From Chitinophagales bacterium (GTDB lineage Bacteria > Bacteroidota > Bacteroidia > Chitinophagales > Saprospiraceae), in the NCBI GenBank assembly GCA_013299105.1, contig JAAFJY010000022.1, positions 62,001 through 126,000 of the forward strand: a stretch of 64,000 nucleotides of DNA. The letters are read 5' to 3'. Shown here in pieces: positions 9,036 through 55,536 of this stretch. Each line of letters starts with the position of its first letter. Positions within the stretch are counted from its first letter, which is position 1. The notes below the pieces were generated by a model. The model had not been told where the DNA came from. It made no database searches and saw only the letters and a list, made by a program, of their open reading frames with translations. Made by a program: the position numbers and the translations under genes.

Positions 9036-9556
9036 ATCACTATTGCAAGGCGAAAGAAATAAGTCCATTGCCGCTAGTCCCACGTCTCCTGACGGGGACT
9101 GTCCTGATCCGCGTCTCCTGGCGAGCCGAAATGATGCATTAACGCACCAAGAAATAGACGCTTATTTCGTCTCTAGCCCACTGGCATGAACTTGACTGAC
9201 CAACGTTGGGGACCTACGGCCCCGCCAGCATGATCCGCTAGACCCACGTCTCCTGATGGGGACTGCCCTGATCCGCGTCTCCTGACGCATTGGCGAACCG
9301 AAATGATGTATTAACGCACCAAGGAATAGGCGCTATTTTAGTTCCTAGACCGCTGGCAGAACCTTGTCTGACCAACGTTAGGGACCTACGGCCCCGCCAG
9401 CATGCCCCGCTAGTCCCACGTCTCCAGACGGGGACTGCCCTGATCCGCGTCTCCTGGCGCATGGGCGAGCCGAAATGATAGATTAACGCACCAAGAAATA
9501 GGCACTTATTTTGTTTCTAGACCGCTGGCAATCCTGAAAATCCTAATTATCCTCAA

Positions 9557-9793
9557 AACTTCGTAGAAGTTTCACGTTTGTAGCACTTGGTGGCACCCCA
9601 TTCACAGGAACTTCGTAGAAGTTTCACGTTATTGCATCATATTGGTTTGTAGCGGTTTGAGGAGTATTTTAAAGAGGCATTGTCTAAACAACTGAATGTA
9701 CACTTTTTTCAACAATATTTTAACGTGAGACTTCTCCGAAGTCAGGCCCTCTTAGTTTGCCTTTAGCTACAAACGTGCCACTTCTCCGAAGTT
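9557..9793 (+). repeat. hairpin-tipped element A, copy 1
   Basis: A 237-bp element. The left end has two AACTTCGTAGAAGTT-type hairpins, each followed by TCACGTT. The right end, read in reverse complement, has ACTTCGGAGAAGT hairpins followed by CACGTT, giving imperfect terminal inverted repeats of about 80 bp. There is no coding capacity. Related copies lie at 9946-10182 and 45831-46484. Confidence 0.75.
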
Positions 9794-9945
9794 CCCCGCT
9801 AGTCCCACGTCTCCTGACGGGGACTGCCCTGATCCGCGTCTCCTGACGCATGGGCGAGCAGAAATGATGTATTAACGCACCAAGGAATAGGCGCTTATTT
9901 TGTTTCTAGACCGCTGGCAATCCTGAAAATCCTAATTATCCTCAA

Positions 9946-10182
9946 AACTTCGTAGAAGTTTCACGTTTGTAGCACTTGGTGGCACCCCATTCACAGGAAC
10001 TTCGTAGAAGTTTCACGTTATTGCATCATATTGGTTTGTAGCGGTTTGAGGAGTATTTTAAAGAGGCATTGTCTAAACAACTGAATGTACACTTTTTTCA
10101 ACAATATTTTAACGTGAGACTTCTCCGAAGTCAGGCCCTCTTAGTTTGCCTTTAGCTACAAACGTGCCACTTCTCCGAAGTT
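9946..10182 (+). repeat. hairpin-tipped element A, copy 2
   Basis: Second copy, apparently identical to copy 1 and offset by exactly 389 bp, so it arose with the tandem duplication and not by separate insertion. Confidence 0.75.
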
Positions 10183-10336
10183 CCCCGCTAGTCCCACGTC
10201 TCCTGACGGGGACTGCCCTGATCCGCGTCTCCTGACGCATGGGCGAGCAGAAATGATGTATTAACGCACCAAGGAATAGGCGCTTTTTGACCACATCGTG
10301 TCACTTTATCCACCGCAACAGGTTTTGAATCCGCCC

Positions 10337-41881: not shown

Positions 41882-44800
41882 TTAAAAAGTAGCTTGCAAG
41901 TTGAACCCTACGCGGCGTACCGAAGGCGCATTGGCGTACTCAAAACCCACAAAGTTTTGGTTGCCAAAAGTGCTGGTCTCTGGGTCAAAATTGGAAGCTT
42001 TGGGAAAATTAGGTGCTTTAAACCACAGGTTGCGGCCCGTTACGCTGAAACGCAATGAACCAATTGGCATGCCTTTCAAAAGCGTTTTTGGCAAAGTGTA
42101 ACCTACCGAAACCTCGCGAATGCGAATCGTAGTGCCGTCATATACAGACCATTCGTGGGCCCCGTTCACTGCGAATGAGTTGCCGAAATACAAGTCGTTC
42201 ATCTCGATCATCAGGTTGTTGGGAATTTTGTTGCCCCGCTCGTCCAGCAGCGGCAAACCAGTGGTCGCATCGCCCAAAAAACCAGGGATGATGTAGTTCA
42301 TTTCGCGGTTTTCGGTGTCCGCAGTTACCCCGCGCCCCAACAATTGAGCGTTGGTATCAGTATACAAGTCGCCACCGTGGCGGTAATCGATCACCACATT
42401 CAACAAGAAGCCTTTCCAGGAAAAAGTATTGGTGAGGCCCAACAAGAAATCAGGGTTGGGATCGCCGATGATTGCTGGTGTCGGAGCAGAGATCAGCTGA
42501 CCGTTGGCAGGATCAATCAATAGATTCCCGTCAGCATCGCGAGCAGCAACGGTGCCCCGAATCACCCCATAAGGCAAACCTGGTCGCAACACTGGCGTGG
42601 CACCACCCCCAAACAAACCCTGGATTTCAATCTCCTCCAAACCCGGAGCCAGCTCCTTTACGATGTTGCGGTTGCGAGTGAACGTAGTGTAGATGTCCCA
42701 GTTGAAGCCATTTTCACTGCGGATCGGGCTGAGGCTGAGGCCCACTTCAATCCCATTGTTGTCCAAAACCCCAAAATTGGTCAAGAAACTGTTGAAACCC
42801 GAAGCTGCGGGCAAAGACAAGCGCCCGATCTGGTCGGTAGTGCGGGTTTGGTAATATGTCAGATCCAATCCGATTTGACCATTGAAAAACTTGAACTCCC
42901 CTCCTACCTCAAAGCTACGGGTGAACTCCGGCTTCAGATCTGGATTCACTTCGGTGTTGGAGAGCGTAGAAGCAGGCTGCCCCCGGAATGGGAAGTCGGT
43001 GGTCCTTACTGAACCTACCAGATTCGAACTTGCGCCCAAGTTGATTAAGTAAATGGGTTGCAATGAATAGGGTGAGGCGTCATTGCCCACGGTGGCCCAA
43101 CTGGCGCGAAGTTTACCATAATTAAGCACTTTGGACTGCATTTTCAAAGCGTCGGTAAAGACGAAAGAGCCATTGACTGCCGGATAGAAAAAACTGCGGT
43201 TTTCCTTGGGTAAGGTAGAAGACCAGTCGTTGCGACCCGTGAAGTTGAAAAAGGCCCAACCCTTGTAGTCAAACCCCAGGTCCGTAAATGCACCGTACAA
43301 GCGACGACGAGAGTAAGTCCCCCCAAAAGGCGTAACTGTTGCAGTGTTGTCGAGGTCAAGGATGTTGAAATCAACCATCCCCGCGCCCCTGAAGCTTTGA
43401 TCTTCTACCGTTCGTTGGTTCACGTTGTGCCCCACTACTGCACGCAGCGTCAGGTCTTGTCCCAGGCTGCGGGTAGCAGTCAAGAGTAAGTTGGACTCAA
43501 TCTCGGTGAAAGAAGTCGAGGTTTGGGTGATTTGCCCAATTTGGTTGCCTCCACGAGAGCCGGGCCGAAACCATTCTTTGTCGAACTGCGAATAGTTGTT
43601 GATCCCAATTTTGTAAGCGGCATTCAACCAGCTGTTGATGTCGTAACTAGCCCCCAAGCTGGCCACAAAACGATTCACATTGGCATTGAAGCCATCGTTG
43701 GTAGTACTCCAGTATGGGTTGGTGGAGGAGCCTAAGGGTACAAAAAACACACTACCTCGGGTACTTGGGTTCTCAAAAGGCAAGTCTTGCAGGGGCCAGT
43801 TGCGGCCCAAGTACATGGTACGCCCGAATGCACTGGCGTTGCCCACTGCATTGCTCGCCCCACCAGCAGGGCCCAATTGCAAGGTATTGGTATAGGCGAA
43901 ATTGCCATTTACAGTCAAGCCATTGTCCAAAGAAGTACTTCCACCCAAACTGAGGTTGAAGCGATTGAAAGTGGAATTGGGGATGAAACCTTTTTGATCC
44001 AGTTTTGAAAAAGTAGCCACCAGGCTGCTCTTGGCTGTCCCTCCAGTAACAGTAAGTGAGTTTTCATAGACGCCGCCTGTTTCAAAAAAATCCCTCACAT
44101 TGTTGGGATAAGCTTGGTAGACGGTTCTTTTGTTGCGGTACAAATCGGGAAAAGCATTTTGATAAGCGGCCCAATAAGCGATTGAGTCAATCGTAGGATA
44201 AGGCACTGCGGACTTGAAGGGTGCGCCCCAAGAACCATTTGCAAAAGCGAAGTTGAACCCTGTACCAGTGCCATAACTGTTTTGTAAACGAGGAATATTC
44301 GACACATTTTCCAAGGAGTAAGAGCTGGAATAGCTTATTTCCAAGCCTTTTTTGTTGGATTTGGCTGCGCCAGTTTTGGTAGTGATGACCAATACCCCAT
44401 TGGCAGCTCTGATTCCATACAAGGCTGCTGCGGCTCCACCTTTGAGTACCGTGATCGAGGCGATGTTGTTGGGGTCCAAATCGGCAAAACGGCTCGAAAA
44501 AGCCCCACCACCTGCCAATTGTCGGTTGCCGCTAGAGCTTGCCCCTACGGTTTCGTTGTTGTAAGGCACTCCATCTACTACGATCAGGGGTTGGTTGTTT
44601 CCAAAAAATGAGCGGTTGCCGCGCATGGTGATACGGGTAGCACTACCTGGCACCCCACTCGAACCCAGGATGTTGACTCCAGGCACTTTGGCGGCCAGAC
44701 TACGTAGCACATCGGGCTCGCTGGTTTGTTGTACTTTAGTGGCGTCCACTCGTTCAACTGAATACCCTAGTGCTTTTTGTCCCCTTGAAATTCCTACTGC

Positions 44801-45127
44801 GGTGACCACTACCTCGCTCAGTTTCAGTACATCCGCTTTCATGTTCAAGTCCAGCTTACTGCGTCCATTAAGGGGTTCTTCAACAGTGGTAAATCCAGTG
44901 TAGCTGAAAACCAAAACCGCATTGTTGGGGGCATTGAGTTCATATTTGCCATCAATATCGGTGACTACCCCTTTGCTCGTACCCTTCACGAGGATGCTCA
45001 CCCCTATCAGGGGTTCCGCATTTTCGCCTCCTGTAACCCTTCCATTCACGGTAAGGTCTTGTGCCCCAAGGCTGGTACTGACACCTAGCCCCAGTAATAG
45101 CATTAAAAAACACCATTTAGCTTTCAT
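41882..45127 (-). CDS. SusC/RagA-family TonB-dependent transporter
   Basis: The protein has 1081 residues. A signal peptide ends near SLGAQ, followed by a CarboxypepD_reg-like beta-sandwich (LTVNGRVTGGENAEPLIGVS), a TonB-box-like stretch (KLSEVVVTAVG), a plug domain (VERVDATKVQ, LIVVDGVPYNN) and a C-terminal 22-strand barrel ending in GFNLQATF with terminal Phe. It imports a large ligand with energy from TonB/ExbBD, paired with the SusD_2 lipoprotein. It is the first gene of a minus-strand cluster (SusC, SusD, lipoprotein, secreted protein, regulator). Confidence 0.97.
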   Translation of the reverse strand: MKAKWCFLMLLLGLGVSTSLGAQDLTVNGRVTGGENAEPLIGVSILVKGTSKGVVTDIDGKYELNAPNNAVLVFSYTGFTTVEEPLNGRSKLDLNMKADVLKLSEVVVTAVGISRGQKALGYSVERVDATKVQQTSEPDVLRSLAAKVPGVNILGSSGVPGSATRITMRGNRSFFGNNQPLIVVDGVPYNNETVGASSSGNRQLAGGGAFSSRFADLDPNNIASITVLKGGAAAALYGIRAANGVLVITTKTGAAKSNKKGLEISYSSSYSLENVSNIPRLQNSYGTGTGFNFAFANGSWGAPFKSAVPYPTIDSIAYWAAYQNAFPDLYRNKRTVYQAYPNNVRDFFETGGVYENSLTVTGGTAKSSLVATFSKLDQKGFIPNSTFNRFNLSLGGSTSLDNGLTVNGNFAYTNTLQLGPAGGASNAVGNASAFGRTMYLGRNWPLQDLPFENPSTRGSVFFVPLGSSTNPYWSTTNDGFNANVNRFVASLGASYDINSWLNAAYKIGINNYSQFDKEWFRPGSRGGNQIGQITQTSTSFTEIESNLLLTATRSLGQDLTLRAVVGHNVNQRTVEDQSFRGAGMVDFNILDLDNTATVTPFGGTYSRRRLYGAFTDLGFDYKGWAFFNFTGRNDWSSTLPKENRSFFYPAVNGSFVFTDALKMQSKVLNYGKLRASWATVGNDASPYSLQPIYLINLGASSNLVGSVRTTDFPFRGQPASTLSNTEVNPDLKPEFTRSFEVGGEFKFFNGQIGLDLTYYQTRTTDQIGRLSLPAASGFNSFLTNFGVLDNNGIEVGLSLSPIRSENGFNWDIYTTFTRNRNIVKELAPGLEEIEIQGLFGGGATPVLRPGLPYGVIRGTVAARDADGNLLIDPANGQLISAPTPAIIGDPNPDFLLGLTNTFSWKGFLLNVVIDYRHGGDLYTDTNAQLLGRGVTADTENREMNYIIPGFLGDATTGLPLLDERGNKIPNNLMIEMNDLYFGNSFAVNGAHEWSVYDGTTIRIREVSVGYTLPKTLLKGMPIGSLRFSVTGRNLWFKAPNFPKASNFDPETSTFGNQNFVGFEYANAPSVRRVGFNLQATF

Positions 45128-45955
45128 TCTTCATATTTAAGTGAGTGATGGAATGAGCAAGCAAAGACCTGCCAAGACTGGTTCGGCGCAGCACGAACAG
45201 TCAAAAACCAAGTGTTTTGTTTGCACGAAAAAGTCATTCAATGCCGGGTTAGGAACGGCATTGTTGTTTTCTAGTAAACCAGTTATGGCCATGAGTTGCC
45301 TGACCCAAGTACGCAGCGGCATACTTGACTGAGTAAACTCAATGCGAATCTCGCATCAGGGCCAAAAAATTAAAAACAACATTTAACGGCGGGGTCGGGT
45401 GATTCCTACAATATTCTATCATGGTGAGCACAGTAAACTCACAAGAATAACAGTCGGCCCAAATGTAACTGATATAATGATGCATGTAAATCCTGCAAAT
45501 TGGGGGATTTTGCGTGGATTAAATGCAGGCAAAAGAAGATGAAATGCTTTAAAAGTCTATAAGCGACTTGTTTTTATCGACTAACGTATAGTTTTGGCAT
45601 CACCCAAATTAGGTGAGTAGCGTTTGCCCATTATTTTGTCAGGTAAATGACCAATGTGGGTTAAAAGCCTAATTTTGAGGTGGGTTCTGGTTTGTTCGGC
45701 ATGTCTTGTTGACATACGATAGACGACATACGAGTTACGATATATGATTTAGGGACTCGCTGGGGAAATTTGTCATGTTTTAAGTTCTCGTTTGCACGGT
45801 TTGAGATTTTTGAAATTTAAAATTGATAAGAACTTCGGAGAAGTGCCACGTTTGTAGCTAAGGACAAGCTAAGTAGGCCTGACTTCGGAGAAGTCGCACG
45901 TTAAAATAATGTTAATGAAAAAGTGTTTATTCAGTTGTATCGACAAGTTCTTTTT

Positions 45956-46361
45956 CAGCAATTCCCGCTTTGGATCATATTTTGCTGACAAATAAAGCCT
46001 TGTGAAGATAGGGCAAAAACTTGGACAGCAAAAAACACAGTTTTTTAGCACTAAAAGCGAGTGTTGAGGTCTCAAAGAGGCTGTGACAAGTTGAAAATAG
46101 AGCGGCGCGCTGGTAAAAGTCTACAGACTTGTACCACTATTTGCACGTCTCTGACGTTTGATGAATTTTTATTAAAAATTTGACTATCAACATGTTGTGT
46201 AGAAGTCGCGAAGTCTCCTTCATGCGTCAGAGACGCAAATATAGCCGTACAAGTCCGGAGACTTGTACGAGCGACATTCTTTTTATTTTACGACAAAAAT
46301 CAAAACTTTCAGCTTTAACAAATACAAAATCAGAGAATTATGGCTAAAGCGGGAATTGCTG
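45956..46361. repeat. palindromic element C inside element A
   Basis: CAGCAATTCCCGCTTT (45956-45971) is perfectly complementary to AAAGCGGGAATTGCTG (46346-46361). These arms bracket the foreign segment within element A and themselves enclose element B. No second copy of C was seen. Confidence 0.6.
46104..46300 (+). repeat. hairpin-tipped MITE-like element B, copy 1
   Basis: The left end has AAGTC-TACA-GACTT and ACGTC-TCT-GACGT hairpins. The right end has GCGTC-AGA-GACGC (46224-46236) and GTACAAGTC-CGGA-GACTTGTAC (46247-46268). The ends are inverted copies of each other over about 55 bp. A homologous copy lies at about 55246-55440. Confidence 0.75.
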
Positions 46362-46556
46362 GTTCTTTTTTAAATACACTTTAAATCATTAAAATCCAAT
46401 ATGATGTAATAACGTGAAACTTCTACGAAGTTCCCAAGAATGGGGTGTCATAAAGTGCTACAAACGTGTAACTTCTCCGAAGTTTTCAGAAATTGATAAA
46501 TTCTTGTCTGTTCTCTGGAATAAATCCTTAAAAAAACAAGCTCTTTTACTCAGCAT

Positions 46557-47612
46557 TCACGTTAATTTCAAACAGGATTCAATGGCCTTTTTCAAATATT
46601 CTTCGGCTGGAGCACAAGGCAAGCTTAGCTTTTCAAGCTGTTGAAGAGCAGTCCCAAGGTCAAAATCTTCCTGCTCACACCAGCCGATGCCAGCTTCATT
46701 ACCTAGTTTTTTAGCCAAATAGGCTTGTTCTGGTTGCGCTGGGGTGGGCACTAGGTATACCTTTTTTTGCAATACTGCTAGGTCCATCAAACTGCTATAC
46801 CCTGAGCGGCAAATGATGCCCGTGCATTGACTGATTTTTTCTTGCAAGTTAAAAGTGGTCAAAAAAGGGAAAATGACGAGGTTTCCTTCTTGTTTACTGG
46901 CCGAATTGATCCCTGCCAAACCCTGTACCAGCAAAAACCGCAAATCGGGAAATTTTTTGACTTCTCTGCGAATGATTTTTTCAAATAAACTTCTTTGTGG
47001 CTCTGGCCCCGATAGGATAAATCCTACCTGATAAACAGGAGATTGAGGTTGCACTTCCATGCGGGTCAATGGGCCAACATAATAGGTGGGCAACAGGGGT
47101 AAAGCTGGATGAGCAAGTTTTCCAGCCAAGTTGGGCTCGCCAGGGTAATCGGGCACCCAGCAGGTCTTGAAGTTGCGAATCATGGCCACATGGATCGCTT
47201 GTACTAACCAGCCCACGGGCCACCTGGGCAAAGGCAAATGCAATTGATGGCTCAGAAAAATGGAAGGAGTACCGCGTAAAAAACACCCGTAGCGATGATC
47301 GGCGATGGCCAAGTCGTACTGATTCCGTTTGTGCAAACCTTGAATAACCTGATGCTCTTGCCAAATGCGCAACGCGATGCGGGGCAATTGCCACGCCATG
47401 TTGAGCCAAAGGTTTTTCCCGGGATATAGAACGCCATAACCGGGCAGTGCATGGGTGTTAATACCAGGGAATTCAGCTTGTAACAGGGCCAAAGCCGGGC
47501 CGCTAGAAGCCAACTGCACCTCATGCCCGCGTTCCAGCAGTGCTTGTACCAAGGGCACACAACGACTGGCATGACCCAAGCCCCAGTCCAGTACAGCTAC
47601 TAAAATGCGCAT
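46557..47612 (-). CDS. GT28/MurG-like glycosyltransferase
   Basis: The protein has 351 residues. MRILVAVLDWGLGHASRCVPLVQALLERGH is the glycine-rich first loop of GT-B enzymes of the GT28 type. The C-terminal half contains GIICRSGYSSLMDLAVLQKK and LVPTPAQPEQAYLAKKLG, matching the nucleotide-sugar site of MurG/UgtP-like transferases. Homologues in Bacteroidota are annotated as UDP-N-acetylglucosamine-type transferases; donor and acceptor are not certain. It should be peripheral on the inner membrane. The start follows directly from the Rossmann motif. Confidence 0.87.
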   Translation of the reverse strand: MRILVAVLDWGLGHASRCVPLVQALLERGHEVQLASSGPALALLQAEFPGINTHALPGYGVLYPGKNLWLNMAWQLPRIALRIWQEHQVIQGLHKRNQYDLAIADHRYGCFLRGTPSIFLSHQLHLPLPRWPVGWLVQAIHVAMIRNFKTCWVPDYPGEPNLAGKLAHPALPLLPTYYVGPLTRMEVQPQSPVYQVGFILSGPEPQRSLFEKIIRREVKKFPDLRFLLVQGLAGINSASKQEGNLVIFPFLTTFNLQEKISQCTGIICRSGYSSLMDLAVLQKKVYLVPTPAQPEQAYLAKKLGNEAGIGWCEQEDFDLGTALQQLEKLSLPCAPAEEYLKKAIESCLKLT

Positions 47613-55245: not shown

Positions 55246-55440
55246 TGCGCTGGTACAAGTCTCCAGACTTTACCATTATCTGCACGTCTCTGACGTTTGA
55301 CAAATTTTTATTAAAAAATTGAATACCAATATGTTAAAAAGCGATATTCACACCTCTTTCATGCGTCAGAGACGCAGATATAGACGTACAAGTCAGGAGA
55401 CTTGTACGAGCGACATCCTTTTTATCTGGAGACAAAAATC
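55246..55440 (+). repeat. hairpin-tipped MITE-like element B, copy 2
   Basis: The left end has ACAAGTC-TCCA-GACTT and ACGTC-TCT-GACGT. The right end has GCGTC-AGA-GACGC (55363-55375) and GTACAAGTC-AGGA-GACTTGTAC (55386-55407). It is homologous in order and orientation to 46104-46300. Confidence 0.75.
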
Positions 55441-55536
55441 GAAGAATTCCGTGTTAACAAGCACAAAACCACCGGATTTTATCCAATTTAAAAATTGCAG
55501 GTTTTTCAACGCCTAAACCCATCAACCAGCTAACTC

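Follow-up and report, generated by a model that had tools for sequence, protein, structure and literature searches.

A miniature element with a REPIN-like core, apparently inserted into a putative IS200/IS605-type derivative in a Chitinophagales bacterium

The locus, the junctions of C and the origin of A

The segment under study occupies positions 45831-46484 of the window (the whole analysed stretch of 64,000 nucleotides) and is flanked by a gene for a TonB-dependent receptor (41882-45127) and by a glycosyltransferase-like gene (46557-47612), both on the minus strand. The initial annotation had described it as three palindromic elements nested inside one another, and the observation itself was confirmed: A-like ends were verified at 45831-45858 and 46457-46484, and the 16-bp arms (45956-45971 and 46346-46361) are perfect and enclose a palindromic segment. 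Read from left to right, the segment starts with the first half of element A (45831-45955, minus strand, reversed relative to the A copy at 9557), which includes one copy of a target duplication (45947-45955, GTTCTTTTT), and continues with element C (45956-46361, plus strand), a 406-bp MITE with perfect 16-bp terminal inverted repeats CAGCAATTCCCGCTTT which is multicopy in the genome. Within C lies the core B, consisting of REP1 (46108-46157, plus strand), a loop (46158-46224) and REP2 (46225-46273, minus strand), the inverted partner of REP1. C is followed by the second 9-bp copy of GTTCTTTTT (46362-46370), which C would have made, and by the second half of A (46371-46484, minus strand). The halves of A bring along 47-nt arms (45812-45858 and 46457-46503), which are 79% complementary. 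In line with the initial annotation, no open reading frame of at least 100 amino acids was identified in A, B or C. An intact A without C, serving as paralogous empty site, is found at 9557-9793 (plus strand) and again, identical, at 9946-10182 (plus strand) within a 389-bp tandem duplication, confirming that A occurs intact elsewhere. The surrounding region (9069-10288) contains 106-nt palindromic repeats in an array, next to the tandem duplication holding A twice.

When used as query, the 654-bp segment yielded 94 matches in its own genome (7.67 Mb in 77 contigs), which is far above chance, while among 39 other genomes nothing better than a REP-sized piece was retrieved (E 1e-13 at best; up to 14 candidates scored per genome). 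A 654-bp unit that is conserved as such and comes without intact A, which had been named as the finding to argue against sequential insertion, was thus not encountered, the best match in the 39 genomes being REP-sized and A being intact elsewhere in the own genome. It is barely credible that the arrangement is one functional unit (e.g., a regulatory RNA or a protein-binding array) of only accidentally composite appearance: its hairpins are strong by fold energies, which would suit such a role, but A without C and C without A both exist, an exact 9-bp duplication marks the junction and the 39 other genomes provided no long match.

The insertion of C into A is well supported at the sequence level. 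The target duplication, for which the initial annotation had recommended to look, abuts C on the left and on the right. Removal of C and of one duplicate leaves 239 bp of A as compared to 237 bp for the A at 9557, to which the restored A aligns with 84.5% identity and without a gap at the join, and the lengths balance (654 - 239 = 415 = 406 + 9). Seven further near-full-length A copies without C were identified in the genome (L083, L190, L192, L194, L195, L196 and L198), of which L083 is only 72% identical and L194, L195 and L196 have their flanks in common; partial matches are four (L189, L191, L193 and L197). It is the target duplication together with the gap-free empty A and the A copies without C which argues for the insertion. 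The empty site is provided by A paralogues rather than by an orthologous locus, as congeners share no more than 48-50% identity with the neighbouring gene (46557-47612) and the scan of named genomes revealed no relative. Next to this, one of the partial A copies (L197, G000:C14:104568-105230) contains a central interruption of about 420 bp, which by eye resembles the D type described below with an A-like core.

The initial annotation had reasoned that these elements would need machinery in trans, and candidates are indeed present, namely a DDE insertion sequence for C and, for A and B, tyrosine transposases whose ends correspond. At one end A matches L033 over 75 bp (93%), at the other over 79 bp (77%); the ends of L032 are matched as well, and those of L031 over 27-33 bp only. 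L031-L033 all score above the IS200/IS605 cut-off. Related genes of three congeners (56-58% identity) possess A-like hairpins, which lie on either side of L137 and L143 and for L179 were recognised on one side through a sequence match, and such hairpins are absent at the more distant relatives (41-48% identity). A target duplication was found at none of ten A copies (including the tandem pair and the three copies with common flanks), whereby the ends were taken from BLAST and fall one or two bases short in three copies, such that a short duplication could be missed. The left flanks of the 12 ends seen read CTGAA in seven (two in a common context), CTCAA in two and otherwise in three, a bias which would fit a single-strand transposon with a target at one end, and which might also be part of the element. 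A is suggested to derive, devoid of coding sequence, from a single-strand transposon of the IS200/IS605 type with paired double-hairpin ends, and TnpA may have moved it. By motif only (DH[VI]H and Y...Q..HH), the A-type proteins resemble TnpA subclass 1.2, for which the parts of PMC6006769 considered give a low copy number, an origin mainly in Cyanobacteria and Bacteroidetes and, in general, a lack of typical terminal structures; the A type differs from this description by its paired double-hairpin ends and its multicopy coding-free derivative.

Element C and its candidate insertion sequence

With 406 bp, perfect 16-bp ends and no internal open reading frame of at least 100 amino acids, C qualifies as a MITE. 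It is present in many copies in the genome, and as identity among the C matches ranges from 78 to 95% and new insertions were not observed, the earlier designation as an active family was not retained. The C end pattern was found 275 times at up to three mismatches, compared to 86 times for the reversed control, and led to a pair located 1423 bp apart on contig 12 which flanks a gene for a 438-aa DDE transposase (L070). The ends of this insertion sequence (CAGCAATTCCCGCTTT) are identical to the 16-bp ends of C, and it possesses an exact 9-bp duplication of its own, its left part being located within an acetyltransferase gene. The transposase exists as a single full copy in the genome, to which two 64-residue fragments match with 39% identity. 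Among profiles, PF01609 (general DDE) scored above and PF13808 below the cut-off, and the NCBIfam models for IS1380, IS4 and IS701 were all below. An assignment to the ISAs1 or IS4 family was not upheld, since no family model exceeded its cut-off, and L070 is therefore referred to as a DDE insertion sequence by PF01609. A further sequence, GAGCAAATCCCGATTT, recurs several times among the listed C-end matches (e.g., G000:C1:517544, C2:72900 and C3:2484) and is perhaps the end of another repeat family.

Sixteen C-family copies with both ends, the insertion sequence included, were inspected for duplications. Six are flanked by exact 9-bp repeats, two agree in eight and one in seven of the nine bases, as compared to 240 mismatched flank pairs, in which seven was reached once and eight or nine never; when lengths of 3 to 12 were considered, exact duplications occurred at 9 bp only. 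The remaining seven (0-4 of 9 bases) are without duplication and count against this reading of C, as decay or later rearrangement has to be assumed for them.

Relatives of the insertion sequence in other bacteria (best 57% identity, Phaeodactylibacter xiamenensis) have ends of the CAGC type such as CAGCGATTCCCGCTTT. From 80 fetched loci, 23 were examined and 14 revealed an exact 9-bp duplication, while nine had none; in the 14, the ends match in 16/16 bases at eight loci and in 11-13 bases at six, for which the end scan favoured positions with duplication. At E 1e-20 an L070-type transposase was identified in four of 395 genomes drawn from the phylum, the own genome included. In P. xiamenensis all six end pairs at up to two mismatches are 1374 or 1388 bp apart, corresponding to the full-length insertion sequence, and no MITE was seen among them, which counts against the present reading. 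The same record holds an end variant, CAGTGATTCCAGCTTT, six times, its partner not being within reach. Within the genus, C and its insertion sequence are both present in the own genome and were both not seen in four congeners: there the L070 transposase was not found, and the listed matches to the 654-bp unit revealed REPs but no C arms (up to 14 candidates scored per genome).

These data suggest that the L070 transposase moves C. Beyond the ends, the two have little in common (matches of 18 and 49 bp), hence C did not arise from this copy of the insertion sequence by deletion alone. This, together with the single full copy of L070, would be in line with C being moved by another transposase with similar ends, a possibility regarded as unlikely given the perfect 16-bp match of the ends, the equal duplication length of 9 bp, the equal restriction of C and L070 within the genus and the lack of any other gene with these ends among about 100 of the 275 places listed.

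The REPIN-like core and its edges

REP1 and REP2 of B are 50-nt double hairpins in mutually inverted orientation. The hairpin pattern was found 97 times at up to three mismatches and not once in the control, many of the 97 sites being counted on both strands as the pattern is nearly its own complement. The same REPs are located on both sides of the RAYT genes L037 and L039, and L037-L039 score above the NCBIfam RAYT cut-off (NF047646); the search for a REP-associated tyrosine transposase with matching ends, as proposed in the initial annotation, was thus successful with L037 and L039. Motifs only (NHLH and Y[IV]H[HN]NP) relate L037-L039 to RAYT subclass 2.6, which PMC6006769, in the parts considered, describes as mostly from Bacteroidetes and flanked by atypical, genome-repeated structures; YVHNNP and YIHHNP are slightly off the motif YIH[QN]NP printed there. 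Membership of the CGTC-type REPs (PMC3733652) is not claimed, as CGTC sits within a stem of B.

Twelve C elements were compared, interrupted or rearranged copies (L072, L074, L080 and L201) and one-ended copies being left out. Ten carry the REPs of B, matching L037/L039, at the same place, and two do not (L209, 265 bp, and L081, 163 bp); by eye, L209 contains one diverged REP, and L080 has lost most of B. Conversely, 23 of the 24 B pairs which were assembled, outside RAYT genes, from the own-genome matches of the 654-bp query and of the hairpin pattern have at least one C arm that aligns better than shuffles, the exception being L082 with no clear C arm on either side, and free dispersed B pairs were consequently not recognised in this genome. 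The copy at 55246-55440, earlier taken as independent B, belongs to the 23: it runs on into the right arm of C (66 aligned bases, score 60; 0/300 shuffles as good and 0/200 in a repeat) and is a decayed C copy (55246-55478, plus strand) with core B, right arm and no clear left arm. The hint of a left arm of a second type (1/300 shuffles) is not claimed, as with another reference copy 162/200 shuffles were as good. Other places with the B hairpin (L185-L188) hold lone REPs, two equally oriented REPs or the remnant of a C element. At 16 loci fetched from congeners, B-type REPs were present in 12, with inverted pairs in 11, four loci were of the A type and none had C arms; free inverted B-type pairs without C arms thus exist in three congeners.

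The latter loci document that B can stand alone, and would be in line with three successive insertions at the locus, i.e., of A, then of C and finally of B into C. Such a third nested insertion was rejected as very improbable, given that B resides at a fixed position in ten of twelve C elements, that C subfamilies contain it although their left arms differ, and that 23 of 24 B pairs outside RAYT genes come with a C arm, including that at 55246. From the nested insertion proposed earlier, the entry of C into A (9-bp duplication, gap-free empty A, other A without C) therefore remains, while B as separate insertion at this locus does not. Given these counts, B appears to have been present in C before C spread, as a fixed passenger. 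It is REPIN-like, yet not a free REPIN in the own genome, and probably REPIN-derived. The most economical history would be that free REPINs are older and that one of them was caught in the C shell, which subsequently spread it. Among the C copies, L076 and L077 differ strongly from the window copy in their left arms and are alike in core and right arm (C subfamilies), and by eye the core loop seems to be different in L204, L085, L089 and L209.

Across eight C copies (seven both-ended and one with a damaged left end) identity amounts to 90.6% in the REP columns, 88.3% in the ends and 77.3% in the rest, and when two REP windows were slid along C, the REP value was reached at two of 208 positions, of which one was the true position and the other lay next to it. 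Eight C copies are without right arm. In seven of them (L075, L078, L079, L086, L087, L088 and, uncertain, L082) homology ends where REP2 has its outer edge (C position 316-318), whereas it extends to 333 in the remaining one. Clear arm homology beyond the breakpoint was found in none of the eight (23 to 280 of 300 shuffles as good), whereas all three controls were positive (0/300 shuffles). Since the flanks beyond the REP-edge breakpoints differ among copies, the breakpoints seem to have arisen independently. The arm losses would be explained if RAYTs cut at the REP edge, and an action of RAYTs on the cores, which they may still cut, is inferred from the REP conservation and from this position of the breakpoints; alternatively, the breakpoints may result from recombination at hairpins. 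As a tentative and rather doubtful model, the REPINs of the own genome would be dual-substrate elements inside DDE-type MITEs: a DDE transposase would move the whole MITE and a RAYT would still cut the REP edges inside, thereby removing arms and exchanging cores or shells.

A second shell and the relation to known systems

A further element, D, was noticed as interrupter of C copies (L201, L089, L084, L075 and L080), being located in or beside the loop of B in the first four. Its end, GTAAGTTCTCAATCC, was found at 145 places at up to two mismatches as compared to seven in the control, so that about 70 copies would exist if the 145 ends are halved (e.g., L215, L216, L218, L220-L222 and L225). 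For 19 copies, 14 picked from the D-end list and five within C copies, the duplication is exact over 8 bp in eight, 7/8 in five, 6/8 in three and 1-2 bases in three; in 342 mismatched D flank pairs, eight was reached once and seven four times. The cores of these 19 match the ends of L038 in nine cases, those of L031 in nine and neither in one, L034 being left out of the core comparison as it has no clear flanking repeat. MITE shells with REPIN-like cores thus appear to recur in the own genome, with C and D. An autonomous partner of D was not found among about 100 of the 145 D-end places listed. The GTAA ends and the 8-bp duplication of D are reminiscent of IS66, which was dismissed as D partner, as PF03050 has no match in the own genome. 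Two rearranged loci were observed in addition: L074 (G000:C1:412599-413226) consists of C within an apparent D with a 9-bp duplication TATTTAAGG, an insert of about 217 bp residing inside that C, and L080 (G000:C20:68161-68633) is a C copy with D inside whose flanks AGTTGTTAC and GTAACAACT are mutually inverted, without direct duplication.

Among the A, C and D elements compared, none matches two transposase types; each element type matches one transposase type. In sum, one nested insertion is well supported, one passenger is fixed and three candidate machineries have matching ends. The overall reading is considered very probable: a DDE insertion sequence (1423 bp, CAGCAATTCCCGCTTT ends, 9-bp duplication) would mobilise short derivatives, the C elements, one of which would have transposed into the middle of A at the window locus, duplicating 9 bp; A would be derived, coding-free, from an IS200/IS605-type single-strand transposon, and the REPIN B in the middle of C, matching the ends of RAYT genes as the third machinery, would have spread as passenger of C. 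By this REPIN-like core of another transposase class, C and D differ from the MITEs RUP, NEMIS, Bcr1, ERIC and Nezha, for none of which such a core is known to us.

Bacterial MITEs as covered in part by PMC3733652, which names the latter five, are short, coding-free and carry terminal inverted repeats like C, to which C adds the target duplication and a partner sharing its ends. As in the REPINs defined in PMC3116915 (parts considered), B combines two REPs in inverted orientation, its REPs also border RAYT genes and single REPs exist too; unlike there, the pairs are not free but reside inside a DDE-type MITE, and each REP is a 50-nt double hairpin. The closest precedent found for REPIN-cored MITEs comes from A. 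variabilis and H. neapolitanus, where according to the sections of PMC3733652 considered REP dimers are regularly located inside longer palindromes and these palindromes were not found without REPs. For these shells neither a partner insertion sequence nor a target duplication is given in those sections, while C has both; TIR-flanked tyrosine transposases are reported there as well. ISPpu9, described in the parts of PMC8450116 considered to insert into REPs as target, resembles the present case in that insertion sequence and REPs are nested, several C copies likewise having D within the loop of B, and differs in that C and D carry REPs inside. REPIN-cored MITEs are absent from the parts of PMC10969869 and PMC2817692 considered, and apart from the dimers of PMC3733652 no prior description was found in the literature covered, to which subscription papers contribute little. 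The parts are of known kinds, and their combination in two shells with three core types appears to be new.

For the A family, the present findings supply terminal structures for a TnpA subclass described as being generally without them, and the REP-edge breakpoints provide natural evidence as to where the RAYTs of this Bacteroidetes group may cut. If the tentative model of REP-edge cutting holds true, DDE transposase and RAYT would together build mosaic elements and drive their diversification. REPINs are described as RAYT-dependent for mobility. Carriage of three core types by two unrelated kinds of MITE shell would provide a second vehicle that differs in mechanism and target choice.
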